From the NCBI GenBank assembly GCA_903813345.2, contig CAIIXF020000006.1:34137524-34201523 (forward strand): a stretch of 64,000 nt of DNA, read 5' to 3'. A model generated the notes under the pieces. The model searched no databases. It was not told where the DNA came from and saw nothing but the letters and a program-made list of their open reading frames with translations. Source of the stretch: Owenia fusiformis (Eukaryota; Annelida; Polychaeta; Sabellida; Oweniidae). Of this stretch, positions 456 through 64,000 are shown one piece after another. How positions within the stretch are numbered: position 1 is the first letter of the stretch; each line of letters opens with the position of its first letter. Made by a program: the position numbers and the translations under genes.

Positions 456-3400
456 ATGTCAGGTTCTAAGATACTGCAGAGGCTTGTGACTCCAATAGTC
501 AAACAATCACAATGCGGATATCACCTGTCACGTATCATGTGGGAGAAATCCTCCAATAATGATAATGGAGCCCCCAGCAGTGGGAGTTCAACAAATCTTC
601 CGAGTGGTCCATTGACGAAACCTGAAGTTCCCGCTAAAATCACAGAGAGACTCCCTGCTGGTGGGGAATATAGAAACCCCCTTCCAGTGTTAACTGGGGA
701 TTATAACACTCATTTAATCCCTAATCAGTCAGATTTTCTCATCATTGGTGGTGGCATCATGGGTTCTTCAATAGCATACTGGTTGAAGCAAAGATTCCCT
801 AAAGGATTGTCTGTGACAGTTATTGAACGTGATCCAACAGTGAGTGAAACTTTAAGTAAAATTAATCACCCCTAATTTGAAGAGAATTGGATAGGGCATT
901 TTTAAGAAAACAACATTAATGAATTTGCGAGTTGTTTGTTTTGATATTATTTTTTAATTTATTTATTAATTTTTATTAAATCAAAATACCGTATTGAAGA
1001 TTCCAGGGAAACTTGTGGGAGTCTTTTACAAGTCAGTCTTCCATCAAATTTTTTTAAAATCTCAACCTTTTCAAAACCTATAGCTACAGTACAATATATA
1101 TGATTACAGTAAAACCTTGTACGTTGAAAAACTTATTCTACTTCAAAATAATGTTCTACTTAAAGATGTTAATTTTACATTTAAGTTAATGTAAAAAATG
1201 GGTTGCATTACTAATGCTCCACCTATGGAGGCATTCTACTGACAGACGTTACTGTACCCCAGTGAAATATTTATGTTTTTTCAATTCCAGTATTCAAGGG
1301 CCTCTACAGGTCTCTCTGTAGGGGGGATAAGGCAGCAGTTCTCAGTGAAAGAGAATATACAACTCTCCATGTACAGTGCAGAGTTCCTACGCAACATAAA
1401 AGAGCACCTCAGTGTTTTAGGTATGCTTAGTATTGCTTTAGGATTTACCATCGTTTTAGGTATGCTTAGTATTGCTTTAGGATTTACCATTGTTTTAGGT
1501 ATGCTTAGTATTGCTTTAGGATTTACCATTGTTTTAGGTATGCTTAGTATTGCTTTAGGATTTACCATCGTTTTAGGTATGCTTAGTATTGCTTTAGGAT
1601 TTACCATTGTTTTAGGTATGCTTAGTATTGCTTTAGGATTTACCATCATTTTAGGTATGCTTAGTATTGCTTTAGGATTTACCATTGTTTTAGGTATGCT
1701 TAGTATTGCTTTAGGATTTACCATCGTTTTAGGTATGCTTAGTATTGCTTTAGGATTTACCATTGTTTTAGGTATGCTTAGTATTGCTTTAGGATTTACC
1801 ATTGTTTTAGGTGTATTGTTTTAAGTATTAGCTTGCTCTACAACATACTTTGATATATGTTTGTACTTATACACCCACTTACAAATGGTGTTAAGTGGAA
1901 ATGTTTTGTATGTTCCAATATGTTATATTATGAAATAAACTAAACCAAACTAAATAATGTTCTAAGTTAATGAAAAATACTTGTGAATGTAAAAGGATGT
2001 TTTTATTTCTGAGTTTCAACACTGGCTCAATTTTTCCCAGGGATTTATTTTACATGCAAATGACAAAATAAGACTGTAATCATGGAAAAGTGTGAAATTT
2101 TAATATGAACTATGATTAAATATCAGATATGGACCCCCCAGATGTACAGTTCAGTCCTCAGGGATACCTGTTTCTTGCAACTGCTGATGGTGCACAACAG
2201 CTACATGAAAACCATGAACTACAAAAGTAAGTTTATTTATTATACAGAGGAAGCTTACTCACTCATAATTAGACATTAATCTCAGTTTTAATGTCACCAC
2301 CAGAAGTGGTTATGTCACCACCATAAGTGTGTATGTCACCACCAAAAGTGCTTATGTCACCACCAGAAGTGCTTATGTCACCACCAGAAGTGTTGACATA
2401 CTGTTATATTCTCCAATTTTTGGGGATGGCAGTTGGTGTTCGGTCTCTGTAACAAATATAACAGTTAGTGTTTAGCAGTTGGCATTGGGTGGTTGGCTTT
2501 TGGCATCTGTAACAAATGGTGGGTGGTGACATTTTGCATTTTAATGTCTTGTTGTTGATTCATCATTATTCCTTAGTACTATGATAAATATGAGTAATTA
2601 AATTTTGTTCAGAAACACATTGTTCTCTTGGTTTGATATTCAGGTTTATTACTATTTTTGAAAAACATACATGACATTCAATACAACATGACGCTCTCAA
2701 GAGCATATATGTTGGTTTTAACTGGACAGAAATGGGTCAGTGACGCCGAAAGATAAGACAAATAGAAATGGAGTGAAGAAATACCTGAGAATGACACTGG
2801 CCCAAGTCTGTTAGAAATCATTTCAAAAATGTAAAAAATATTAAAACTTGGGGACAGGGACACAGGGCACGAGAACGGGTAATCGCTGCTTAGTTTATGA
2901 TATATATTTAGTTGATAAGACAAAATGCGGCTGAGTGCAGATTAACATTTTCTGTTTTTAATAGGAGTCTGGGAGCAAAAGTGGAACTTTTGTCAAATGA
3001 AATGCTGAAGAAAAAGTTTCCTTGGATCAATACAGATGGCATAGAGTTAGCAAATTATGGTATGGGATGATTCAACTTTTTGCTTAGTGTTTACATGCAG
3101 ACTCCCTTAACTGCAAACATGCAAACCCCAAGGTGACATTGAGCTATACTTCTATGTTGGCAGTTAGGATGACATTGCCCAAGGACTTTTTAAATATTCT
3201 TGGGTCTTCAGAGAATGGGAGAATCCCCATAGTCTAATTTCTTATAACTTAATAAATTCCCTTGAGTCCTCTTGAGACCTGGAAAGTTGTTTATTGCTAT
3301 CGTAGGGATAGCAGAAAAGGTCCAACCTCCCCATTCCTACTGGTCTTTTTAGTCAGACCTTGTGGGATTTTGGAAGACTGCCCAAGACCACACAAAAGTC

Positions 3401-6400
3401 CCATGAGGTCCTGTCAAAAGATCCTCTTGCAGTCTTTCTTTCGATTTGAAATACGAAAAGGGTAAATTATATCCCTCAGTGTTAACCAGGCTTTATCCTA
3501 ATATTTTTATGTGGGTAGTTTGAGTGACAATGACCTATATTTTCGTGTACAAAGTTTAAGTGACCTTGACCTATGTTTTCAAATGTATTTTCAGGGTATG
3601 AAAATGAAGGTTGGTTTGACCCTTGGTCATTACTAGAAGCATTCAAGCGTAAAGCCATGTCTTTAGGAGTTGAATATAAAAAAGGAGAAGTTGTAGGCTT
3701 TGAAATGAAGAATATGAGAGGAAGAAATCGGGTCACAAACACTATCATACAAGACGATTATATGGACTATGTACTGGTGAGTATTTTGGGTAGAAACATG
3801 ACTCAAAGATGACTCATTAAGATGCTTTGATAGGGGCCATATTTTTAAACCCAGAGTTGAGCAAATGAGCTAAAAAAAGTCATATTGTTGAGTGACCAAA
3901 AAAATACAAAACTTTATTTTTGGATTACTTTCAATAATGTCATTTCAATGCACAATGACTTTGAGATTAAGATCAATAAGTCACTGAGTCATTCATTGCT
4001 CTTATTGTTAAGATTTCGCAATTTTCAATTGGCCACTTGGTCCAGTCATGTTCAATTCAAATTATTTGATGGGTTTAATTTTTTAGTATATTTCCTTACA
4101 TTTATAGCAGTATGTTCGTTTAAGTCATCATGAAACACCTTGACAGATGAAGCTCGAAGATTATTATTTTCAAGGTCAGAGGTGAAGACAAGGAAGTGTA
4201 CCCTGTTAAGACTCCATGTTGCGTCGTGGCTGCAGGGGCATGGTCAGCTGAAATTGCAAGAATGGCAAACATTGGTGTAGACGAGGACCATCCATATTTA
4301 CATGTGCCCCTACCAGTAGAACCGAGGTACAACATTTTGAATACAGGTTCTATTGTTCTGTTGAACCCATTTTCATTATTTGGTGCAAACTTGATACTTA
4401 TTATCCTTCATACTTTACCATCGTTTTGAAAGAGAAACGAATGACTGTTAGCTTCTGACTAGTGATCTTGAGATCATTTTTAATCTTTGGTTCTCAGTCT
4501 TTATGTACAGAAATAAATATTCTTCATGAATAATAGAATATTGTAAATGATCCTTGAAAAAGGCATGATATACGATAATAAAGCTCTAAAGTCACATGAC
4601 CTCAATTGTCTTACATGACAGTCATAATGCTAGTAATACATCAGGCCTGTAGCCAGGATTTGTCAAGGGGGGTTGAGTTTTCAAAAATTTCCAGGGGGGT
4701 TCACAGTGTCCATAAAGTTGTATCCCATCAAATATTCTTTCATAATGTTTTCTAGGAAGCGCTATGTGTATGTTGTAAACTGTCCAAATGGACCAGGTTT
4801 GGAAGCACCTTTTACTATAGACCCACAAGGTGTGTACTTCAGAAGAGAAGGTCTTGGAGGCAACTATGTATGTGGCACTGGGCCTACTGCGGTAAGTACA
4901 GTATTCAATATTATTATACGCCTAGGTGTGTGGTATTGAAAATCATGTAATCTGATTGGTTCACCGCTTCCTTTCTTATTCTTTTCCTTTGAAATGAAAC
5001 AATTGGAGGTTTAAGGCTAATTAGCCAATTGTAATCAAGAATTATCACCATTATGCAAGAAAATATTTTAAAACTAAATAACTTATAATAAGGAGATATC
5101 ACTGTGCTTTGATCGTTCTTAAGTAGTCTTTAAGTACCTCACTCCATTTTTGCTGTTTAACCTTTTCACACCTCAAAAAATATATGATTCTTGTGAGATA
5201 CTAGGGGTAATCTAAAAGTTATAGTCCTCTATCCATAAATCTTTGATCAACCCTCATATATACATATTTCTATGAAATGGGTGTTGGTTAATATGTTTGA
5301 TTGAAAAAATAATAATAATATAATATAATAGATGTACTTTTACATGTAGATTTCAAATATGACATCACTTTGACTGAATTTTGAATAATTAATGATGTCA
5401 GTCAAGATTATTTCTACTTGCATCTAGTCTATTGAAAATGACTGACACAGTGTGGTTTTATTTGACAATTAATATGAAAGATGGCACTGTAGAATAAAAT
5501 TTCAAATGAACTTGCTTTGACTGTCATATTCCATGATATTGAATAATTGAAATTGAATATCAGAAAAGACAGAGGGTTATCCAGGAAATAGAAATAAGAA
5601 AAACTCTTTTTTATTTCATTCAAATTACACTCCCCGAGTAATCGTGTGACCATTACAAAAATTGGCCCATTTAAATGACTTCAGTATATGTTTACCACAG
5701 TGTGTTTGACTGTATTATAAAAACAAAAAAAACAAACTGGAAATTATGGAGATGTTAAAATGTGCACATATTCCCACTACCCCCTGTTCACCAAGATAAT
5801 TATGCACTATGTCCTCACAGAGCCCTGTAGTGATTGACCATGATGGCACATACTTCCGTCCTGAAGGCCCTAGCAGAAACTATATCTGTGGCTCTGCGCC
5901 AGCAAATAAGGTAGCCTTCTAGCATCTGCACTTGTCTTTTCATCATGCTTGCACGCAATAGAGGGTTCGTGTTGAACCAAGGCAAAGTCGTGAACACCTC
6001 CTGTGTGGTATTGGTATTCTCTGAATGCACTGCTCCAATATTCAGATTTAATATCAAATTCCTACAGTTTCAAAGGCTGGTATTTGGACAATAATTCTGA
6101 ATATGTTCTTTACATTGACCAGTTGCATTACTTAAATTCATTAAACATGGTTAGACATCACTGAAATTGTTCAGTCAAATTCCCTCTTTGTTTTTACTGG
6201 AGCTTTTCAGATGCCTTTGGTTTTATCAGTAAGATTTCTTCCTTTTTCAAATAAGATTTCTCACTTTTATTAATGAGATTCCTTGCTTTTACAATATTGT
6301 TGTTTCTTGCTTTTATCGATAAGATTCCTTGCACTTATCAAAAATGTTCCTTTAACAATAAGACTCCTTGTTTTTATTCCAGGATTCCTTGCTTTTATCT

Positions 6401-8314
6401 ATAAGATTCCTTGCTTTTATCAATAAGATTCATTGCTTCTGTTAATATAAAGTCCTTGCTTTTACAAATAAGATTTCTCACTTCTACTTGTAAGATTCCT
6501 TGCTTTCAATAAGATTCCTTGCTTTTATTAATGAGATTCTTGCTTTTACAATATTGTTGTTTCTTGCTTTTATCAATAAGATTCCTTGCTTTAACAAAAA
6601 TTTTCCCTACTTTTATAAATAACTTTCTTTGCAAGTAAGTAAGGGTTGATGCCTTTGCAAATAAGATTCCTTGATGTTTGAACATACTGTGTCCAGTGGA
6701 TTTGAGGTCAATTGGCTTCCACATTCATCTTACTTTCACATTTCCTGGGGAATCATTTGAGGGAATTGATTTCAGAATTTTAGGGATGCTTTTATGTATA
6801 AATATCTAGAACTGATTAAATTTTAGGCATGCTGGGTATATTTATATTTCAAGGCTGCCATTTTGGATTTTCTGTCCTGAAAACTTATTTTAAAAGTCTT
6901 GTCTACTTGTTTCCAGCCAAACTGTTTGATAGATTAATCTGAATTTTTAAGGATGTTTCTTGATAAAGAGTTTAAAACTAATTAGTTTTTGGGCTTTTTG
7001 GTAAATGTACTGTTTGGGATTTTCCATCCTAAAAGTTGTCTCCACATTTCAAGCAAAACCAAAAAAGTTGAGAACTGATGATTTTTTGGGGATTCTGGGT
7101 AATTGTTAATTGATAATATACTTGTATTAGCTACATGTTCCTGTCTTAGTATTGGTATTAGACCTCTCTTTAAGAATAAACTGCCCATGTCATCTGTTAC
7201 GTAGTTTTCTGTCCAAGGATAATATATGTAGTTAATATACAACTATTATTACAATTGTACAACTGTTTATATCACTGTTAACTTACTATATATAGCACAC
7301 AATTATTTTTATTTGTTTTGAAAGGAGCAGGGAAGGTATCGCAACAGATTTCAGACAGTCATTTGTTGGATTTTGGCTATTTTCTGAGGAATAGAAGCAT
7401 ATGTTAGGCCAATGCAACTCCAGGACAACCACTTATAGAGATGATAAAATAATTTGGACTTCGAGACAGGGAAATATACACATGCAGAGGGATAAAAGTT
7501 GAATCATGTATTTTATGATTTTTGGGGTTCAAATTATTTTTGATTTCCATTCCAGGCGGAGGAACCAAGCATTGAAAACCTGGATGTGGATTATAATTTC
7601 TTTGATGAGAAAGTCTGGCCAAGTTTGGCGCATAGGATACCAGCCTTTGAAAGTCTTAAGGTAACAATGCTGACATTTTAAAATGAAATAAGAACATATA
7701 ATGTCAATATGAGCGTGTCGTAAGGACCATTGCTTAATAGTCAAAATTGAATGATGGACCAGTTGTCTTCCTACGTATGCTGAAAAATCAGTTGGCCCAC
7801 AATGAAGCCAACTGGCTCTGGACTTTGGTCGCAGCCTGTACATCGCAGAATTCTTGTTGTGAACATCCTTGCATATTCTTGTTTTTAATGCCCTATTTAC
7901 TCTTGTTTTTAATGCCCTATTTACTCTTGTTTTTAATGCCCTATTTATTCTTGTTTTTAATGCCCTATTTATTCTTGTTTTTAATGCCCTATTTATTCTT
8001 GTTTTTAATGCCCAATTTATTCTTGTTTTTAATGACCTACAAATTCTTGTTTCCAGGTAAAAAATGCTTGGGCTGGTTACTATGACTACAATTACACTGA
8101 TCAAAACCTCATCATCGGAAATCACCCTCATCACAGAAACATTGTGTTTGTAACAGGATGTAGTGGGCATGGTATCCAACATGGCCCTGCCATTGGTCGA
8201 GCTGTGATGGAGTACCTTTTAGATGGAGACTTCAAGACAATAGATCTGTCTCGTTTTAGCTTTGATCGATTTTTTGCTGAAGATGAACTGATTTTCGAAA
8301 AAAATGTGGTTTAA
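456..8314 (+). CDS. FOXRED1: FOXRED1-like FAD-dependent oxidoreductase, mitochondrial (9 exons plus one extra exon)
   Basis: In vertebrates FOXRED1 is a mitochondrial FAD protein needed for assembly of respiratory complex I. Proposed coding exons: 456-839, 1291-1420, 2127-2226, 2965-3059, 3595-3776, 4175-4326, 4756-4891, (5821-5910), 7556-7660, 8057-8314. All junctions are GT/AG and the phases agree. Without the extra exon the product is 513 residues (human 486); with it, 543. The N-terminus is basic and hydroxylated without early acidic residues, like a mitochondrial presequence. The FAD-binding motif GGGIMGSS starts at residue 98. Family signatures follow: [15 protein letters not shown] in exon 2, EGWFDPW in exon 5, AAGAWSA in exon 6, VEPRKRYVYV across exons 6/7, [11 protein letters not shown] in exon 7, and AGYYDYN and GCSGHG in exon 9. 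The start is the first in-frame ATG before the presequence. Introns are full of repeats, and two tandem arrays touch splice sites (see separate entries). Identification is firm; exact isoforms are inferred. Confidence 0.93.
1421..1810 (+). repeat. 39-bp minisatellite, exactly 10 copies, starting at the FOXRED1 exon 2 donor
   Basis: Ten consecutive 39-bp units, almost identical (variants only at the CATCG/CATTG/CATCA position). Each unit begins GTATGCTTAG and ends with TTTTAG, so each junction recreates the exon-intron border TTTTAG|GTATGC found at 1415-1426. As 39 = 13 codons, the exon 2 frame stays open through the array (hydrophobic 13-residue unit [13 protein letters not shown]) and ends at the TAA at 1822. 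The antisense frame is open too. The array lies in intron 1-2 side DNA immediately after exon 2 and is probably intronic. Confidence 0.95.
2293..2397. repeat. 21-bp tandem repeat, about 5 copies, FOXRED1 intron 3
   Basis: Units of the form ATGTCACCACCAGAAGTGCTT repeat about five times with point changes. Located between FOXRED1 exons 3 and 4. No coding meaning is apparent. Confidence 0.85.
5821..5910 (+). CDS. FOXRED1: Extra in-phase FOXRED1 exon duplicating the end of exon 7
   Basis: This 90-bp segment has an AG acceptor (gtcctcacag) and a GT donor, with a reading frame that is phase 0 at both ends. It encodes 30 residues with the pattern [17 protein letters not shown]. That is clearly related to the last part of exon 7 ([19 protein letters not shown], 4810-4880). 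Orthologues have this block once. Exon 7 starts in phase 2, so this exon cannot replace exon 7 in frame; it can only be added between exons 7 and 8. Splicing exon 6 directly to it gives a stop after two codons. Inclusion would double a FAD/substrate-side loop. Whether it is used, optional or decaying cannot be seen here. Confidence 0.65.
6215..6680. repeat. Degenerate ~22-bp tandem repeat in FOXRED1 intron
   Basis: Repeated variants of AATAAGATTCCTTGCTTTTA occur roughly twenty times. A longer block is present twice (about 6272-6330 and 6528-6592, both containing CTTTTACAATATTGTTGTTT), showing a secondary larger duplication. Lies between the extra exon and exon 8. Confidence 0.75.
6740..7110. 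repeat. Degenerate copies of the ~180-bp repeat also found at 26.4-27.6 kb
   Basis: About two diverged units share the phrases GCCATTTTGGATTTTCTGTC, AAGTCTTGTCTAC and ATCTAGAACTGATTA with the array at 26380-27640 inside the GHDC intron. This marks a dispersed repeat family in FOXRED1 intron DNA. Confidence 0.65.
7872..8056. repeat. 24-bp minisatellite (7 copies) ending in the FOXRED1 last-exon acceptor
   Basis: Seven 24-bp units (TCTTGTTTTTAATGCCCTAT core) run directly into exon 9. The last, truncated unit is ATTCTTGTTTCCAG, which is the polypyrimidine tract and AG of the acceptor at 8055-8056. The pyrimidine tract is thus the repeat's own sequence, repeated upstream without the AG. Both strands are open for over 100 codons because 24 is a multiple of 3; these ORFs are not judged coding. 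Confidence 0.9.
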
Positions 8315-8532: not shown

Positions 8533-9227
8533 GGTATCGATATGGAGAACTGAATTCAACAATGTTTTTCTCTTAAACCAATCATTGAAAACATTCTGTA
8601 AAAAACATGGTATTTGATGTAATGTTGACTGATTGACAACAATTTAATGCGAAAATTATTTAGAAATATTTTATATAACTGTTTTTGTTAACATTTTTTG
8701 TTTTTTAGTGCAATTGTTTTTGCTCCTTTCTACCAATTCTTGAGAATGAAATAAAATGTCTTTCCGAACCTTGTTGGAACAAAATAGCATATACAACATG
8801 TTTTTAGACCTCTCAATATTAAAGTTATACAAAGGAATTTTTGGTTGATTTTAAAAAAGTATTCAAAAAATTAAAACAAAATCCCCCCAAAATAGATAAA
8901 AATCAAAAAAAAACTTTTATTTCATTAACAAGATACTTTTTTAAAATCAACCAAAATCTCCTTTGTACAATTGCAATATTATGTCGTTTTGTTCCAATGA
9001 GGTTCGGAAAGATGTTTCATTTCACTCTCGAAACATGATACCAAGAACAAAACAAGTGTTTGATGTGTTTTTAAAACAGTATAGATGAAAGTATGTATAT
9101 CTATTTCGAATCATATTGTTTCCATTCAAAAGATGGCCATTAAATTGACAATTTGTAAGATTTTCAGAAATTTTTGATGACTGGTTTAAGAGAAACGTGT
9201 GTTCAAAAAGTTCGCCATATCAATACC
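8533..9227. mobile_element. Foldback DNA transposon, family A, 695 bp
   Basis: The ends are inverted: GGTATCGATATGGAGAACT on the left and a right end whose complement starts GGTATTGATATGGCGAACT. Both arms continue as inverted copies (TCTCTTAAACCA; ATGTCTTTCCGAACC against GGTTCGGAAAGATG; TGGTTGATTTTAAAAAAGTA against its complement near 8931-8950), so the whole unit is one long palindrome. It lies just after FOXRED1. The AATAAA at about 8750, within the element, may serve FOXRED1 polyadenylation. No clear target duplication is seen. Confidence 0.85.
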
Positions 9228-12110: not shown

Positions 12111-12770
12111 TTACTTAACCAGTCTTTTCTCTTGCTTTGGAAATAGTGGCCATCGATATGAATTCAGATTCAGCGTTTCCCGTTTTTTAGTCGGAAACAT
12201 AATCTTGCCATATGCGTTAAATCTGCCTCGTTGATATTGATATACAGATGGAAATCTTACTTTCATTCCCATCATGTCCATGACACCCCATCTTTTTTCG
12301 ATTTCGTTTTCATCTTTTCTGCTTGAATGGCGCTTTTGTTGTGGGCGAAAACTACCCCTTTTGTGAAGTGCACCGTAACGTTTCCTTTGTTGAGGCTCAG
12401 ATTCAATATCATACCCCTCATCATTGTTGTCATAGTTACTGTAATAGTAATCTGCGATGTCTGGATGGTTAATGTAGTCATCCTCATCCAAAGGAAACTT
12501 CAAATCCGAATGCTTCTTGTCATTGAGCCCATCAGCAGTGTTGGGGAGATTTTTCATGAACACTTGAAAACAGTGTCGAATCAGTGCCTTGTCTTCGCAG
12601 CAGATATGAGCGTCTTGTTGACACCAGTCACATAGATTACTTAATGGGACGTCATCTTTGCAGTAGTTTTCTATAACTGCAATTTTATCAGCCTTCTCAG
12701 TGAGTTTCCATGGTAAAGCTGTTGTCATAGTAATAACCCATATCAAAATTATATTCCTGCCTGAGATCAT
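12111..12770 (-). CDS. Secreted prohormone / neuropeptide-precursor-like protein, family not recognised
   Basis: Single coding exon of 219 residues. The start is the ATG at 12770, directly after a good acceptor (ATTCTTTCAG), so an intron in the 5' leader is likely. An N-terminal signal peptide is plausible (MISGRN then the hydrophobic run IILIWVITMTTAL). Next comes a cysteine-rich region (about residues 36-70: C-x6-7-C-x2-C-x6-7-CC-x8-C), then an acidic stretch (DEDDY...DYYYSNYDNNDEGYD). The C-terminal third is cut by many dibasic sites: RKR, HKR, QKR, SRK, EKR, KKR, EKR. Processing would release short peptides such as GSFRPQQ, a ~33-residue peptide starting WGVMDMMGMKVRF, and ETLNLNSYRWPLFPKQE. 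No C-terminal glycine for amidation is seen before most sites. The layout is typical of neuropeptide precursors; function is inference. Confidence 0.7.
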   Translation of the reverse strand: MISGRNIILIWVITMTTALPWKLTEKADKIAVIENYCKDDVPLSNLCDWCQQDAHICCEDKALIRHCFQVFMKNLPNTADGLNDKKHSDLKFPLDEDDYINHPDIADYYYSNYDNNDEGYDIESEPQQRKRYGALHKRGSFRPQQKRHSSRKDENEIEKRWGVMDMMGMKVRFPSVYQYQRGRFNAYGKIMFPTKKRETLNLNSYRWPLFPKQEKRLVK

Positions 12771-13122
12771 CTGAAAGAATATTATATTGTGTTCAATCAA
12801 TCATTACTTGTTCAATCAATTGGGCCATCATGCATTGAGGACCTGCAAAGGAATGAAGGAGGTAATTTATGGGCTCTCAATTTATTTTTATTTTAAAAAT
12901 GAATTTGATTTAATGTAGTTCCATATGTTCAGAAATTTTAATGGCTTCCTAATTGTAATTTCTTGTTATTTTCAGGTACATATCACTTATTCTATATAGT
13001 CACGGTCTACAACTTTCAGTTTTGCTCAAAGAGTGTAAATCTAAATTGTTAGTATTACTTCAGCATTGATGAATATTCTACATTTATAAAACTGTAAAAA
13101 GGAAAAAATTCAGTGACCTAAA

Positions 13123-24999: not shown

Positions 25000-27900
25000 A
25001 TGACTATAGGGGTAAAGAGCAAGGTTTGTCTCCTGGGTGGAGTGGCCCTGTCTTTGGCCGGATACATATTCCTTAACACACAAGGAGTATGGGCATTTAT
25101 TGTCGCTACAGTGCTTGGTAAGTGAACCAGTGAGAGTGTAAAATCATCTTGGATTACCAAGGTATGAAACAAGGCTAGTTCAACAGGTTAAACCTAGTCT
25201 GGGCCTTCTTTCTTATCTGACATATCTTGTGGCCCGCCCTAGGTTTAACCTCTGTGCCTATCCATCCCTTAATGCAAAAAAAATAATGGTGGGCTATGCG
25301 AGCGCATAGAATTTCATGCGCGTTTAATTAATAAGGGATAGTGAGAATTTGCAACAAATGAAAGCATAGCACGGAAGTTAAACCCAATCACGGCAACAAT
25401 AACATTCAGATGAAAGCCGTGGTATTGGGTTTAACTTGAACTAGAAACAAGGCATGAAAATCAAACTTGTAAACGAGTATGGTGTAAACATGGTGTAAAC
25501 TAGAATAAAACATTTTAGATTATGTCAATTTTTATTTTTAGATTTTAAAGTTGCAACTGTTCTACATAGTATGTGATAAAATAAAATGCAATTACAAGTG
25601 ATGATATGCCTAATGAGATTGATTTAAACTGCTATCATTAATATTTTGAAAGAGGGTTGGATTTATATGATTTCTTGAAATGGGATAAGTTATTAGCTTG
25701 TTTAATTGTGTCATCAAGTGTGGAGCAAAGGGAAGGTCCATGGTATCATGGTATAGAGAATTTGTCAGAAGTATCAATGTGAAAGTTTTAAGAACTATAT
25801 GTCATATGATATTCATCTTTAATTTACGTGTGTATTGTTTATTTTGGCCCACCCTGTATACAGATATATGTCAAACCATCAACAAAGTGTGTTAAGATGA
25901 AGAAATAATCCAAGAATTCGTGAATTAACATATATGTAAAAATTCGTATTTGATAAACCTTTTATATCAGCATATAGATTTGTGCGTTAAATATGTATCG
26001 ATATGGTGAACTGAATTCAACAATGTTTTTCTCACCAATTATTGAAAACATTCTGTAAAAAACAAGGTCCTTTATGTAATGTTCACTGATTGCCAACAAT
26101 TTAATGCAAAAATTATTTATTTTTTATATATTTTATATAATTGTTTTGTTAAAGTTGTGTTTATGTCGTTTTTATGTCCCCACCACATAGTGTGGGGCCA
26201 TATTGTCGGCCTAGGCGCGTCCGTCCGTCTGTCTGTCCGTCTGTCTGTCCGTCTGTCCGTCTGTCCGTACGTCCGGCAGTTTTCTCCAAAACCGCTACAG
26301 ATATCACCTTCAAATTTTCAGGGATAACTTATGAGTGCATACAGATGTGGATGAAAAAAAATTAACTCGATACCTACTTCCTGTCGGCCATTTTGAAGTC
26401 AAATGCTAAAATCCTTGTCTGCAAACTTTAAGAAAAACTGCTTCACAGTTGCTTTTAAAACTTTAACATCTTGTTCAGCTCACTTCATTCTAGATCTGAT
26501 TAGGTTTTGGACCTGCTAGCTCAGTCATGTCAGCCATTTTGAATGTCTTAAGAAAAGTTAGCGCGCGATAATACTTTGTATCATATTGAATGGTGTTTTT
26601 GAGTTTTCATACTTTAACTATTTAGTAGCTTTATAAATAATTTCAGGTGTACTTTGCTGTAAAAGCCTACTTTATTGTTAACAGTAGTTATATGTGATAA
26701 TTTTGTAAAAAGATATCACCAAAAACTCATAAGGACTTTTTTATTGTCGGCCATTTTGGATTTTTCGGTCCTAAAATCTTGTCTGTGAAGTCTTGTCTGC
26801 GCGTTTTCAGGTGAACCGTTTGGTGGATCAATTTCAAATTTTCAGGGATGATTCTTAGTATAAAAATCTAGATCTCATTAGTTTTTTGGCATTCTGGGTA
26901 AATGTCAAGGCAGCCATTTTGGATTTTCCGTCCTAAAATCTTGTCTGTAAAGTCTTGTCTACTCGTTTTCAGGTGAACCGTTTCGTAGATCAATTTCAAA
27001 TTTTCAGGAATGATTCTTAGTATGAAAATCTAGAACTGATTAGTTTTTTTGCATTCTGGGTAAATGTCAAGGCAGCCATTTTGGATTTTCCGTCTTAAAA
27101 TCTTGCCTGTAAAGTCTTGTCTACGCGTTTTTAGGAGAACGGTTTGATAGATCAATTTCAAATTTTCAGGGATGATTCTTTGTATGAAAATCTACATCTG
27201 ATTACTTTTTTTGCATTCTGCGTAAATGTTAAGGCAGCCATTTTGGATTTTCTGTCCTAAAATCTTGTCTGTAAAGTCTTGTCTACCCGTTTTCAGGTGA
27301 ACCGTTTGGTAGATCAATTTCATATTTTCAGGGATGATTCTTAGTATGAAAATCTACAAACAGATTAGTTTTTTGACATTCTGGGTAAATGTCAAGGCAG
27401 CCATTTTGGATTTTCCATCCTGAAATCTTGTCTGTAAAGTCTTGTTTACATGTTTTCTGGTTAACTGTGTGACGGATCAATTTCAAATTTTCAGGGGTGG
27501 TTCTTAGTATGAAAATCTAGAACTGACTAAATTTTTGGCATTCTGGGTAAATTTTAAGGTGGCCACTTTGGATTTTCCGTCCTCAAATTGTGTTGGTAAA
27601 GTCTTGTCTACTCATTTTCAGGATAACCATTTCACGGGATCACCACTTGGTGGGGACATTTTGTACACATTTGTGTTCTTGTGTTCCACTGAGGTTCGGA
27701 TAGATGTTTCATTTCATTCTGAACATATGATACCAAGAACGAAAGAAGTGTCTGATGTGTTTTCTAAAACAATAAAGAGAAAAGTATATAGATTAAATTC
27801 AACCTATAATGTTACCATCCAAAAGATGACCATTAAATTGACGATGTGTAAAACTTTCAGAATATTTTCATGACTGGTTTAAGAGAAACGCGTGTTCAAA

Positions 27901-30900
27901 AAGTTCACCATATCGATACCACTCCTTTTTATTTATAATTTTCCCATTACATGCTAATGTGAAAAACGTCATGATAGTTCTTAACCAAAATATTTTTTCT
28001 CAGGAATATGTGGTGTGGGATGCTTGGATATTCTGCGATTGGAGGTTGGAGAAAGTCTTACCCTTCGTTCAGTTCTTGGCCTATACATGCTACATAGAAT
28101 ATTTGGAATTCTGGGTCTATGGGCATACAGGTCTATGCTGAAGACTGACCCTAAACAGGCACAGGACAAACTCCTCATGAAGCTTATCAATACCAACAAG
28201 AATACCAAATATGGAATTGATCATAACTTCTCTATGATCAAATCTCCAGAGGATTTCATTGAGCAACATCCAGTCACTAAATATGATCATTATGAGGAAT
28301 ATTTTGATAGAGTAATTGCAGGGGAGACAGATGTTATAGTTGCCAATTCTACACCAACCTACATCGTACTTACTTCAGGTACTACTGGACATAATAAAAA
28401 ATACCCAGTCTCCAATTCCGGTGCTAACAAAATTGGAGGCTTGGAAATCTTCAAAACCTTTTTGGCAGCAAACTACATCTTACGAAAAACCCTTTCTCCC
28501 GAGTTGAAACTGTTAAAGACGTTAGATGTGAATGTGATTCAAGACCCGATATACACAGACAGAGGAATCCCTATGGGTGGGTTAGCAGGGCGATTTAAAA
28601 TGTCAACTCCAGGCACAGCTGCCCCTCGAATGGTACTTGATGTTTCAACCCAAGATGAGGCTCTTTACTTGTATGCCCTTTACGGAATGAAGGAAAGAAA
28701 ACTAAACCATATCATGATTCCATTAGCTTCAGTTGGTCTTAAATTCTTCGAACTAATAGAGTCCAAGTGGCAACACTTATGTGATGACATAGAAATGGGA
28801 ACAATATGGAAAGATTTGGACATTGATTCGAAAATCCGGGAAGAACTGGAAAAACAGTTGAAAGGAGACAAGATTAGAGCAAATGAACTGCGAAAGGAAT
28901 TCAACAAAGGGATTGAAGGTATTGGTCCAAGAATATGGCAACATTTGCCAATGATCATGATGATATCCACAGGATCGTTTAAGATATATGGAGATATAGT
29001 GAAAGAACGCTACATTGGAGAGCAGATCCCTATTGTATCACATGCCCACGCAGCCTCTGAGGGTATAATGGCACAAAACATGACGCCAGGGCAAAGTTAT
29101 TCACAGTTCACCTTGAATTCTGGAATGTTCTATGAGTTTCTACCTGTGGATGATGAAAATGCAAAACCTCTGAGAGTCCATCAAGTAAGTCAAATATAAG
29201 TCAGGACTTAACTGACCAAACCTGTCATAATGCGTTATATGACCAGGCATCAAATATATATTAACATTCACCATGCAATTTATGCACACATTTAATTCAA
29301 GTTATTCTTGAATTGCAAAAAATCTTGATTTGAAAATCAATATGCAAATGTTGATCAGACGTATACATATAGTTTTGCCTCTCATAATTACATATCAAAG
29401 TATCCAAAGTTCATCTACTTTTTCTTTAATATTTTGACTTCACCAAAGCTCGAAATATCACACCCAGAAAATGTTTCTTGAGAAAAAAACTTATAGTCTG
29501 AATGATCCATATAAATGTGTTATTTTATATTTACAGATCGAGGTAGGCAAATGCTATGAACTACTGGTCACCAACAATTATGGACTATACAGATACAGAT
29601 TTGGAGATGTCATCAAGATTGTTGGCTACAATAACAAAATGCCTGTCTACGAATTCCAGTACAGGTATTTGTATAATTTTTTTCTGTGATAATATAAGGT
29701 GTCACATAAATGGGAATACTACCCCATCAATTCCGGATCCAGCATTTCATTTCCTCGTAAAACACTACAGTATAATAACTGTTCAGATAATGGTTCGATG
29801 TCTTTTTGAGGACTTTGCATTTTAAGATAACTTATATAATAAAAATTCCCCTTTTCTTCTTCTCTCGACATTCACCAGGAAAGTAAAAACATTTTGTCAC
29901 TCATGAAGAAAATTAATTTTTACTGCTTAATAAATGGTCAAGGTCAGTTACATTGAGTTCTATAAGTATGAGAACAGCGTGTTTCAAGGTAACTCGTTTG
30001 GGAAGTGATGCCGGTGATAGAAATTACGATGTAAAGAGAAAACCGTAATGAAATATTTTGTAGATTTCTTTGAAAAACTAAGAAATATACATCATGTACA
30101 TCACAAAACAGAAAAACATGTATTAAAAGTAAGACCTGCAGGTCGGATTCACCCTAGTAGCATTATTTACAATTAATATTTGAAATACAACTATCATTCG
30201 AACTTATGATCGGACATAAGTATGAGGTAACTTTATTAATATTACATAGTTCTAAGTACACATCATGCTTGTGTCCGATCATAAGTTTGAATAATAGTTG
30301 GGTTTCAAATAATAATTGAATGTATGACGTATACGAGACCAATGTTAATGCTACCAGGGGGAATCGGACCTACATGCCTTACTATTTATACATGTTTTTA
30401 AAAATTCAATATGAGATTATATTTCTTAGTTTTTTAAAGAAATCTACAAATATTTTGTTGCGGTATTATCTTTTCGTCGTCATTTCATCATTTTTCGAAC
30501 GAGTTACCTTGAAATATCAAGACGGCGTGCTATTCTCATACTTTAAGAACTTAATATGATGATTGTCATTCATCATTTACTAAGCAGTAAAAAATAATTT
30601 GCATCACGGGTGACAAAATGATTCTACTTTCCTGGTGAATTACGAGTCTCACATCATACGAATGTAATTTTAGGCGATCTGTCCGCATGGGGTGTAATTG
30701 ATATACATGAGTTCTGTTTTAAATTCATAAAGTACATTGATGATTTGTGTCAACAGGGCAGGCCAGATGCTGAATGTTGTATGGGAGAAGACTCCTGAGG
30801 GAACATTTATGAACTCAGTTGTGAATACTGTAAACCAGCTAAAGGGAGTGAGGATAGTCGACTACACAGCCACTGAGAATATTAACCTATCTAAGCTTAG

Positions 30901-49174: not shown

Positions 49175-49420
49175 AGATAGAAATGAGGTGCATTCAATAG
49201 AAATGAGGTACATTCAATAGAAATGAGGTGCATTCAATAGAAATGAGGTGCATTCAATAGAAATGAGGTGCATTCAATAGAAATGAGGTGCATTCAATAG
49301 AAATGAGGTGCATTCAATAGAAATGAGGTGCATTCAATAGAAATGAGGTGCATTCAATAGAAATGAGGTGCATTCAATAGAAATGAGGTGCATTCAATAG
49401 AAATGAGGTCCATTCAACAA
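49175..49420. repeat. 20-bp minisatellite, ~12 copies, abutting the MRRF acceptor
   Basis: Unit AAATGAGGTGCATTCAATAG repeats about twelve times with only two point variants. On the MRRF strand it lies immediately upstream of the acceptor TCTATCTTGCAG; the unit complement CACCTCATTTCTAT is the start of that pyrimidine tract. Confidence 0.95.
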
Positions 49421-57540: not shown

Positions 57541-58309
57541 CTTATTCAATCATATAAAAGTGATATTAGACATGATAGAGAGGTGATATGGGGGACAACA
57601 AATATACAATAACACATTGCTGTATATGTATAGATATGTCATGTAATTTTTATTCATTTGCAATAAAACCTCAAAAAATAACTCGCAATTTTATCTAATA
57701 GAAATTTATTAAATATGTTGAGATCATTAACAGAAACTTTGTAAAGTTAAGAATTCCTAACTGATGCTGTCCCCAGCTCCGATTTCGGTGATCGGCTAGT
57801 AAAAAAGGTTTGAGGGTATCATTTTGTTCCAGACACTCTCTAGAGTAAATTATCCTAACTTGAGTAAAAATGTGTGGTAAGTAAATTCGCTATGGGCAGT
57901 TAAAGAGGCGCCATCTATTCATTTTCAAACAGGGGGTAGGGGTATAAAATAATTTTTAACACATTTTAATAGTAAAAAGACATTGAAATACTAATAAAAT
58001 CTTATCAAAAACATTATTTACAACCAGTATGAATTTTCTTGTGTGAATTAGGGTGAAAATAAGGGCATATTTTGAAATTCACTACAGGGGCGCCACCTAT
58101 TTTCATACTTCTACCACGTGTAATAACTTATTTTAGATTCGTTAAGGTACGAAATGTACTGAAAAAATTCATTCTGAAGGACCTATATATGTTCATACCA
58201 CATAATTAAAATTGGATCAATAGCTTTTGTATTGGCGGCGAAAATAATTATTGAAATTAAAAATTGTGGCATCATGCAGGATAGGGGTGTCAACATCTCA
58301 CATGATTAA

Positions 58310-59040
58310 CTTCCAAAATATGGAGCATATGTATCTCAAATGTACTCAAAATGGTGTATGTACTCTTGCTTTGTCATAATATTACTAATAAGAAGTAGAA
58401 AAATGATTGTACATTTTAAAAAATATTGATTCTCATTTTGGCTTCTGACATCCCAGGGGTGACCATATCTCACCTTAATAACTTCCAAAATATGAAGCAT
58501 ATGTATCTCAAATGTACTCAAAATGGTGTATGTACTCTTGATTTGTCATAATATTACTAATAAGAAGTAGAAAAATGATTGCATATTTTTAAAAATATTA
58601 ATTCTCATTTTGGCTTCTGACGTCCCAGGGGTGACCATATCTCACCTTAATAACTTCCAAAATATGGAGCATATGTATCTCAAATGTACTCAAAATGGTG
58701 TATGTACTCTTGCTTTGTCATAATATTATACTAATAAGAAGATTATACATTTAGAAAATTTTAATTTTAGCTTCTGACGTCCCTCAATAACTTCTAAAAT
58801 TATGTAACATATTCAACTCAAATATACCAAAAAAGGGGGCATATGGACTTGCTTTGTCATCATATTATTCATGAGATGTAGAAAAAATTATTAGACCTTT
58901 TTTGAATTGAAATTTTCATTTTAGCTTCCGAATCTGACATCCCAGGGGCAACTATATCTCACCTTGATATAACTCTCACGATATGCAACATATGCATCTC
59001 AAATGCGTGCCCAAAATGGTATAAATATAGTCTTGTTTTG
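58310..59040. repeat. 172-bp tandem repeats, left arm (~3-4 copies)
   Basis: Units contain ACTTCCAAAATATGGAGCAT, CAAATGTACTCAAAATGGTG, CTTTGTCATAATATTACTAA and ATTTTGGCTTCTGACGTCCC. The outer copies are near-identical; the inner one or two (58740-59040) are diverged. Confidence 0.9.
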
Positions 59041-60059: not shown

Positions 60060-61320
60060 AAACAAGACTATATTTATACCATTTTGAGCACACATTTGAG
60101 ATGCATATGTTGCATATCGTGAGAGTTATCAAGGTGAGATAGCCCCTGGGACACCAGAGGCTAAAATTAAAATTTATAAAAAATGCAATCATTTTTCTAC
60201 ATTTCATTAGTAATATGAAAAAGACAGGACTTTTCTGAGAATATTTGAGGATTATATGTTACATATCTTAGAAGTTATTATTATTATTATATGGTGCGAT
60301 ATGATTACCCAGGAACGTAAGAAGCTAAAATTAAAATTTTTGAAATATATAATCATTTAATTTTTCTACTTCTTCTTAGTAATATTATGAAAAAGCAAGA
60401 GTACATACACCTTTTTGAGTACATTTGAGATACATATGCTCCATATTTTGGAAGTTATTAAGGTGAGATATGGTCACCCCTGGGACGCCAGAAGCCAAAA
60501 TGAGAATAAATATTATTTTAAATGTACAATTATTTTTCTACTTCTTATTAGTAATATTATGACAAAGCAAGAGTACATACACCATTTTGAGTACATTTGA
60601 GATACATATGCTCCATATTTTGGAAGTTATTAAGGTGAGATATGGTCACCCCTGGGACGTCAGAAGCCAAAATGAGAATCAATATTTTTTAAAATGTACA
60701 ATCATTTTTCTACTTCTTATTAGTAATATTATGACAAAGCAAGAGTACATACACCATTTTGAGTACATTTGAGATACATATGCTCCATATTTTGGAAGTT
60801 ATTAAGGTGAGATATGGTCACCCCTGGGACGTCAGAAGCCAAAATGAGAATCAATATTTTTTAAAATGTACAATCATTTTTCTACTTCTTATTAGTAATA
60901 TTATGACAAAGCAAGAGTACATACACCATTTTGAGTACATTTGAGATACATATGCTCCATATTTTGGAAGTTATTAAGGTGAGATATGGTCACCCCTGGG
61001 ACGTCAGAAGCCAAAATGAGAATTAATATTTTTAAAAATATGCAATCATTTTTCTACTTCTTATTAGTAATATTATGACAAATCAAGAGTACATACACCA
61101 TTTTGAGTACATTTGAGATACATATGCTTCATATTTTGGAAGTTATTAAGGTGAGATATGGTCACCCCTGGGACGTCAGAAGCCAAAATGAGAATCAATA
61201 TTTTTTAAAATGTACAATCATTTTTCTACTTCTTATTAGTAATATTATGACAAAGCAAGAGTACATACACCATTTTGAGTACATTTGAGATACATATGCT
61301 CCATATTTTGGAAGTTAATC
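60060..61320. repeat. 172-bp tandem repeats, right arm (~7 copies), inverted
   Basis: Same unit as the left arm, on the other strand. Five to six copies (60415-61320) are nearly identical and repeat every 172 bases; inner copies are diverged. The arm has about three more copies than the left. Confidence 0.92.
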
Positions 61321-61861
61321 ATGTGAGATGTTGACACCCCTATCCTGCATGATGCCACAATTTTTAATTTCAATAATTATTTTCGCCGCCAATACAAAAG
61401 CTATTGATCCAATTTTAAGTATGTGGTATGAACATATATAGGTCCTTCAGAATGAATTTTTTCAGTACATTTCGTACCTTAACGAATCTAAAATAAGTTA
61501 TTACACGTGGTAGAAGTATGAAAATAGGTGGCGCCCCTGTAGTGAATTTCAAAATATGCCCTTATTTTCACCCTAATTCACACAAGAAAATTCATACTGG
61601 TTGTAAATAATGTTTTTGATAAGATTTTATTAGTATTTCAATGTCTTTTTACTATTAAAATGTGTTAAAAATTATTTTATACCCCTACCCCCTGTTTGAA
61701 AATGAATAGATGGCGCCTCTTTAACTGCCCATAGCGAATTTACTTACCACACATTTTTACTCAAGTTAGGATAATTTACTCTAGAGAGTGTCTGGAACAA
61801 AATGATACCCTCAAACCTTTTTTACTAGCCGATCACCGAAATCGGAGCTGGGGACAGCATC

Positions 61862-64000
61862 AAACTCCATTAAATGATGTCATAATAGTAAGATAATTCT
61901 TAACTTTGTTGCTCTTTGGTATAAGACAGGTGAAATCTAAAAGGCACTGACTTCTGCCATCCAGCAAAATATTACCTCCTCTTCAGAATTTTTTCTTTAT
62001 ATATATTTTCCAGAATAATTGTTCAACCACGAAGTAGCAAATCCCACTCAACAAAATATATTCAAATCGGCAGCCATTCTGGAGAAGCCCATTGTATCCT
62101 CTTTGAATATTACTCGGGTCAAGTGATGGCCATTTTTACATGATAGCAGCCATATTTAAACAATCCAAATCTCAGGGTCCCACCAGTAATAGCATTATTG
62201 CTATAATGAGGGAACAGTTGAAGGAACGTACAGATGCTATATCTGTAATAAAACTCCATCGTTGAGAAAATTAACAATACACATTATTTCTAAGATACAA
62301 TAAATACATAATGAGCTTTATTTAGATAATATACATAGATTATAACTAATATTATTGATTTGAAAGATGACTTATATTTTTAAAATCCAGCACCATGGTG
62401 ACGATAGGTCTAATTTAAACAAAACATGTTCATTGGATTAGTGACATTCTTGAATAAACCAGTTTTACTTTCACATGTTTTAATTAATTATCCACCCACT
62501 CCTAACAGGAGAATAGCAAGATGAAGAGCTTTGTAAATGAATGAATTGCAATTTGTTATAGAACATTTCAAGTAAGCGGCCATGTAAAATAACTCTTCTG
62601 GGTTGAAAGTTTGAAATTAACATCACCTGCAAATAGGTTCCAAAGTTCATCAACTCTACTCACAATCACAAAGTTAAACACCTTCCTACTAATTATGTTA
62701 TACGAGGGGTGATCAATAAGTTCTATATTTATAACATAAGCACCTTTTGAGATCAATTACTTCTTCCTTCAACATAAAGCATGTGTACAGAACAGGGAAT
62801 ACATATATACATGTATTTGAATGCATTAGCATTTTACTTTGAATTGAATATAACCCCCTTCATTGCCAAACTATAATTTTGTATTAATATAATCAAATGA
62901 TATATCTGAATATTCCAATCAACTATTCAAGGCTGGTTCTTTTTTCTTTTTTGACTTTTGTTAAAAAATATTTATATGTCATTGATGATGACAGAACTTT
63001 TCAAACTGCATATATGGCTTCAACAGTTCAAAACCATTAGATGCATTCATCAGAATTTCTTGTCTTACATATGCTAAACTAAAACATCCATTTATGGGCA
63101 CTTTACACAAATATATAATCTAATTATACAATCTAGTTCTATTCTCCGACTATTTCAGACAGTGAAGGCATTGTTATTTAAATGACATTTTAAGCAAGTT
63201 CTTCCATACCTAAAAGCTAATAGCCAAATATGTAAACTCTTTATTGAACTCAATTTCATAAATGTGCTTTAAGGAATAATCAAAATACCAGTCAGGATCA
63301 CATCCATTGTTCACGAGGCAGTTACATGACAAAATGTTGCCACTTAGTAAGTTATTGCAAATGGTTAAAAAGATGTTACAATTCACTGTATGCAAACATC
63401 CAACCAATGAATGTCAGTATCACAAAATGGTGATGAAATTAAAATGGTGATGACATACAAATAGAGAATTTTCATTCAGGTCGAGCCAACTTAAAAATTA
63501 ATTATTTGTATGATAATTGGTAAACAGCTTTGTTTCACAAACAGCTGAGACAAGCTTGAATAATACATGTTGATTAAAATAAAATTAGTTGTAATAAGCA
63601 GAATCAAATATTTTCTTTTATCAGACACTTCATTGAAATTCTGCATCCTGATTGGCCGAAGGCTGACCAATATCATTTTACCCAACCATTTTAATTATTG
63701 TAGATTGCCATAGAGCACCAAAGCATAACAGTGAGCAAATATCAATATCATTTATTTGAAACTTTGCATGAAAATTAATTTCAATGTTTGTAAATTATTG
63801 GCAAAAATGAAGAATGAGCTATAAATCAGACATTCTTACTGGGCATATGATTTTGCAATTCACAAATTAACTAAAATATGCAAGTCCTGTTATATTCTCC
63901 ATTGGCAAAATTTGGAGATTGTTTGTAGGCCTATATCTATATATGACAAACCTTATATGACAGTCCCACAATATTTGTTGCTATCGAAATACTGCAGAAT
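61862..64000. other. No confident gene; mariner-like end and an exon-like segment
   Basis: ACGAGGGGTGATCAATAAGTTC at 62702 resembles a mariner-type terminal repeat with no partner found. The minus-strand segment at 63210-63388 is described separately. Otherwise nothing is recognised. Confidence 0.5.
63210..63388 (-). other. Exon-like segment, TICNN-LSC-C motif, related to 11084-11170
   Basis: After an acceptor-like TTTGCATACAG the minus-strand frame reads NCNIFLTICNNLLSGNILS, then CNCLVNNGCDPDWYFDYSLK, on to a stop at 63210. The TICNN..SG..LSC.CLV core matches the segment near 11.1 kb in sequence, spacing and acceptor phase. It could be a terminal exon of an unknown cysteine-containing gene or a repeat fragment. 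Confidence 0.3.

Follow-up and report, generated by a model that had tools for sequence, protein, structure and literature searches.

How does a gene fare when one of its splice donors becomes the seed of a tandem repeat? In the 64,000-nt stretch of Owenia fusiformis DNA analysed here (the window; GC content 33.9%), the second coding exon of a gene runs directly into a 39-bp minisatellite, and the donor of that exon is copied, unit after unit, into the following intron. The copies might serve to lengthen the protein, might protect the exon against loss of its donor, or might simply be carried along. Our preferred reading is tolerance of the array rather than selection for an insert, and the evidence is set out below; the coordinates of the main features are collected in Table 1.

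Table 1. Position of the host gene, the 39-bp array, its donors and two further minisatellites, numbered from the first base of the window.
Feature	Position	Strand	Description or basis
FOXRED1-like gene	456-8314	+	ten coding exons; spliced ORF
FOXRED1 exon 2	1291-1420	+	130 nt, ends in phase 1; spliced ORF
39-bp minisatellite	1413-1812	+	ten full units and a partial copy of 10 bp, with TGTTTTAGGT at each end
Donor 1 (exon 2 donor), TTTTAG-GTATGC	1415-1426	+	motif search and donor matrix
Intron 2	1421-2126	+	706 nt
Donors 2-10, identical, every 39 nt	1454-1777	+	starts at 1454, 1493, 1532, 1571, 1610, 1649, 1688, 1727, 1766
Eleventh boundary, weaker donor TTTTAG-GTGTAT	1805-1816	+	motif search and donor matrix
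First in-frame stop after the array, TAA	1822-1824	+	frame reading
Exon 3	2127-2226	+	joinable in frame from every array donor
24-bp x 7.5 minisatellite	7874-8052	+	ends within the pyrimidine tract of the acceptor before FOXRED1 exon 10
20-bp x 12 minisatellite	49177-49417	-	ends 7 nt short of 49170, the last base of an inferred acceptor

The exons of the host gene were called by hand and gave, once spliced, an uninterrupted product of 543 residues from ten exons, or of 513 residues without exon 8. The frame of exon 1 matched the DAO family (Pfam PF01266, 1.1e-09), the protein contained a DAO domain with its FAD-binding start, and the 513-residue form matched the sarcosine oxidase chain 1y56_B (1.2e-24). 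The gene is presumably FOXRED1, named after the human protein. The end of exon 2 was fixed at position 1420 because the protein is then open and the phase of exon 3 agrees; the rebuilt 543-residue protein thus bears out the donor at 1420/1421 proposed in a preliminary description of this DNA. Exon 8 (5821-5910), which is 90 nt long and begins and ends in phase 0, was found to repeat the 3' part of exon 7 in diverged form, and makes a symmetric cassette that could be skipped in frame.

Tandem Repeats Finder (TRF) delimited the array at 1413-1812, with a period of 39, 10.3 copies, 97% matches and a score of 765, and, judged by this score, ten near-identical units are plainly not due to chance. 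The array starts within exon 2, whose final 8 bases it includes, and ten full units (1421-1810) were counted when the repeat was cut at the donor. Both results agree with the preliminary description, which had the exon 2 donor starting a 39-bp array of ten units; the span that it gave (1411-1822) does contain the array, but is a few bases too wide. The motif TTTTAGGTATGC was present in 10 copies on the + strand of the window, all within the array (1415, 1454 and so on to 1766), and was not found on the - strand of the window. AGGT was observed at 11 unit boundaries. The word TGTTTTAGGT was located at 1413 and 1803, the two ends of the array, and was exact at 7 of the 11 boundaries, with one mismatch at three of the remaining four and two mismatches at the other.

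Compared across the ten units, 37 of the 39 positions were invariant. The first variable position carried C in units 1, 4, 6 and 8 and T in the remaining six, and the second was changed from G to A in unit 6; read as residues, one difference is silent, within an Ile codon, and the other replaces Val by Ile. Past the array, positions 1813-1900 aligned weakly to the unit (13 of 500 shuffles were equally good), and this flank could possibly hold one or more older, decayed units, as the weak alignment faintly hints. A 28-base piece of the repeat had no exact match among contigs of prokaryote genomes or viruses, as expected of an animal sequence, and the repeat peptide had no match in PDB.

We consider it likely that this is a minisatellite of ordinary origin that grew from the exon-intron junction, that splicing tolerates the array, and that the first donor is dominant. 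Seeding at the junction is suggested because the array begins in the end of exon 2, is bounded at both ends by TGTTTTAGGT and is composed of near-identical units. The short word TGTTTTAGGT would have been present in two copies 39 bp apart, one of them being the exon 2 donor; slippage or unequal exchange between these copies may then have built ten units into the intron and left exon 2 whole. By the precedents of the human genes F7 and IFI6, which are compared below, donor 1 would carry most of the splicing, and use of the later donors would be minor at most and tolerated because it is in frame.

The number of units could be changed by an assembly error, the true allele having fewer or more of them, since assembly is difficult where the units of an array are near-identical. 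The single-base variants are, however, irregularly ordered among the units, which is not expected of a simple artefactual expansion, and we regard such an error as very unlikely.

To score the donors, a matrix was built from 25 donors belonging to four genes of the window, donor 1 being omitted when it was itself scored; the exons of EIF3G and SEC22B were found with human proteins as queries, and the MRRF-like gene was recognised by its protein. Donor 1 scored 8.27 bits, which exceeds 16 of the 25 leave-one-out donor scores (mean 7.28). Donors 2-10 are letter-identical to donor 1 at the scored bases and hence have the same score, the eleventh donor scored 5.61 bits, and every other GT in 1291-2130 scored at most 4.74. 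Donors 1-10 had a predicted duplex energy of -5.6 kcal/mol with the U1 5' end and the eleventh one of -5.1 kcal/mol, both inside the range of the nine donors of the gene (-4.7 to -11.1).

We also considered whether RNA structure hides or exposes given donors, and found no support for this: donors 1-10 were similarly paired, with a mean unpaired value of 0.05 to 0.18 (0.34 for the eleventh), and the array region folded no better than shuffled sequences (z = +1.19; 88 of 100 shuffles folded at least as well).

Ten identical donors of good predicted strength are what would be found if selection had kept redundant donors to buffer the exon 2 donor against loss. All positions of the unit are near-identical, however, well beyond the donor alone, which argues for recent homogenisation rather than for selection on the donor and makes the buffer highly improbable.

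The unit boundaries could also be thought of as a chain of recursive splice sites, through which the intron would be removed in steps of whole units. Recursive splice sites are zero-length exons, and the likeness lies in the abutting AG|GT at every boundary of the array: units begin with GT and end with AG, and removal of any number of whole units keeps the frame. The array differs from such sites in its weak acceptors and its short intron. Scored as acceptors, the boundaries reached only -1.1 to 0.9, whereas 26 acceptors in the window, real or inferred, ranged from 1.67 to 15.57 when scored leave-one-out; the test is not absolute because part of the gap is caused by TAG in place of CAG, and TAG is also found in 2 of the 26 acceptors. 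Moreover, intron 2 as a whole is short and a step of 39 nt is very short. Recursive splicing of this intron therefore appears extremely improbable.

When each of the array donors was joined to exon 3 (2127), all 11 products were open and ended at the final stop only, with 0 to 10 copies of 13 residues added. The 39-bp unit contains stops in both other + frames. A splice donor multiplied eleven-fold and in phase, with later donors joining exon 3 in frame and adding 13n hydrophobic residues, had been claimed beforehand, and most of this was upheld: the frame is open from every donor, the unit has a Kyte-Doolittle mean of 2.2, and the extra donors look usable by their scores, ten of them reaching a value comparable to that of other donors in the window. 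The eleven-fold count needs qualification, as ten donors are identical and the eleventh boundary is weaker.

If several donors were used, FOXRED1 isoforms would differ in a loop of the enzyme, which would be lengthened by 13n hydrophobic residues. The 11 open products and the hydropathy of the unit are compatible with this, and so is the place of the would-be insert: in the alignment, the exon 2/3 junction falls inside eight query residues without counterpart in 1y56_B, so that the insertion point is probably a length-variable loop. The reported use of downstream repeat donors in IFI6 offers a precedent. On the other side, an open frame can also arise by chance. When units with the same ends were drawn at random, 54% had no stop in the joining frame, and a third of periods are divisible by three, so that compatibility would arise by chance with a probability of 0.54 x 1/3 = 0.18, about 1 in 5; frame compatibility alone is therefore not evidence of selection, and none is needed.

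Nor did the codon score resemble that of an exon, with -0.01 per codon for the array versus 0.12, 0.48, 0.29 and 0.27 for exons 2, 3, 5 and 10, the four of the ten exons compared, which are favoured by their presence in the training set. The score gives no sign of a coding role for the array, although the margin is small. The two differences between units would also fit a coding role, but they concern only two variable positions. When exon 2 plus the array was modelled by AlphaFold as a single sequence, one unbroken helix was predicted over residues 12-176 (pTM 0.41), with a mean pLDDT of 88.3 in the best model and of 39.6 to 88.3 across the five models; we give this helix little weight because repeats modelled without an alignment can come out over-confident. 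A long hydrophobic insert would probably be harmful to the FAD fold. Overall, FOXRED1 isoforms of variable length seem unlikely.

A tolerated, junction-seeded repeat is favoured by the 543-residue protein, which is intact with donor 1, by the codon score near zero and by the lack of any unusual RNA fold. Against dominance of the first donor, ten donors are of equal predicted strength, so that nothing in the sequence explains why splicing should prefer the first, and in IFI6 two downstream units are reportedly used. Splicing rules can favour the donor closest to the 3' end of the intron; our literature search on donor preference by position toward that end found nothing direct. Ten identical in-frame donors spaced 39 nt apart constitute a natural test of how the spliceosome chooses among equal donors.

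Minisatellites were also observed beside acceptors. The 24-bp array of FOXRED1 stops 4 nt before the last base (8056) of intron 9, and the 20-bp array lies just before an inferred acceptor (TTGCAG, 7.68 bits) that precedes the first coding exon of the MRRF-like gene; an exon upstream of this acceptor was looked for and not found. TRF rows were merged by hand into 24 arrays, and those in the introns of the four hand-annotated genes were placed relative to splice sites, arrays outside these genes, for example near a GH3-domain gene, being left out of this test. Of these intronic arrays, five had four or more copies, and three of the five lay no more than 8 nt from a splice site. With arrays placed at random, three of five came within 10 nt, a limit set after the distances were seen, in 0.4 to 1.4% of trials, a range that reflects where the MRRF intron is taken to start. 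The corresponding value was 3.4 to 6.4% when all ten intronic arrays, including those of two to three copies, were counted. With the MRRF array left out, two of four gave 4.9% and two of nine 16.5% at the 10-nt limit; a 5-nt limit gave 20% (at least four copies) and 34% (all nine arrays), and a 20-nt limit gave 15% and 42%, respectively. The clustering of intronic arrays near splice sites is thus suggestive only.

The presence of AG was compared in the eleven larger arrays of the 24, two of which belong to one family. Both acceptor arrays (24-bp and 20-bp) lacked AG on the transcribed strand, versus none of the 20 other array strands (both strands of the nine other arrays and the two opposite strands). 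Units of 24 or 20 nt drawn at random from the window lack AG with a probability of 0.27 or 0.33, respectively, and the contrast is partly one of unit length because longer units are less likely to be AG-free. The AG-free stretch before the two acceptors was 206 and 281 nt, versus 13 to 56 nt for 24 others. AG-free arrays are what a splicing filter would leave, because an internal AG would offer a false acceptor. It is conceivable, though rather doubtful, that splice sites seed minisatellites in this genome and that splicing decides which survive, a unit at a donor having to be in frame and a unit at an acceptor AG-free; the sample hints at this weakly, being small and post hoc. Should arrays at splice sites prove to be a genome-wide pattern, splicing would act as a filter on the birth of tandem repeats.

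Other repeats and genes were noted in the window. Two inverted copies of 980 bp (57762-58741 and 60885-61862), 99.6% identical and spanning about 4.1 kb together, each carry a 172-bp satellite, and the pair looks like a recent foldback-type element. A 162-bp satellite is located at 26750-27622, and decayed copies of it, about 74 to 78% identical, were found at 6769-7041 in FOXRED1 intron 8. A dispersed repeat is present downstream of FOXRED1 (8987-9227) and upstream of the GH3-domain gene (27679-27920), the two copies being 85% identical; the GH3-domain gene was recognised by its exon at 27985-29199 (PF03321, 4e-57, Pfam). On the minus strand, an open frame with several dibasic KR sites (12114-12800), which presumably encodes a secreted, neuropeptide-precursor-like protein, had no Pfam match above the cut-off. 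Searches of the window for tRNA genes and Rfam families gave no matches.

Although no report of this array was found in the open-licence literature searched, the kind is already known: two human genes, F7 and IFI6, have a repeat-copied splice donor, and the FOXRED1 array is a further example, adding an animal case to the two human ones. In IFI6 (also called 6-16 or G1P3), Turri, Cuin and Porter are said to have described in 1995 a minisatellite that provides multiple splice donor sites. The IFI6 repeat has a unit of 12 bp and begins with a coding exon's authentic donor; its later donors extend the protein in frame. The transcript variation has been located between exons two and three, and two downstream repeat units have been reported to be used as donors, giving three mRNAs (PMC4526556). 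The FOXRED1 array resembles that of IFI6 in providing multiple donors from a minisatellite that begins at an authentic donor, here that of exon 2, in having units with usable-looking donors, and in extending the protein in frame from the later ones. It differs in the gene concerned and in the length of the unit, 39 bp as against the shorter unit of IFI6, and its downstream donors are predicted ones, whereas use of downstream donors is reported for IFI6.

Intron 7 of human F7 (coagulation factor VII) has several 37-bp repeats, the first of which includes the donor; only this most upstream donor is reported to be used in the normal condition (PMC6627357). As in FOXRED1, the authentic donor is placed in the first repeat with copies downstream; 37, unlike 39, cannot be divided by three, however, and later donors in F7 therefore shift the frame according to the repeat number. 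With units of 37 and 39 bp, F7 is the nearest described case of similar unit length.
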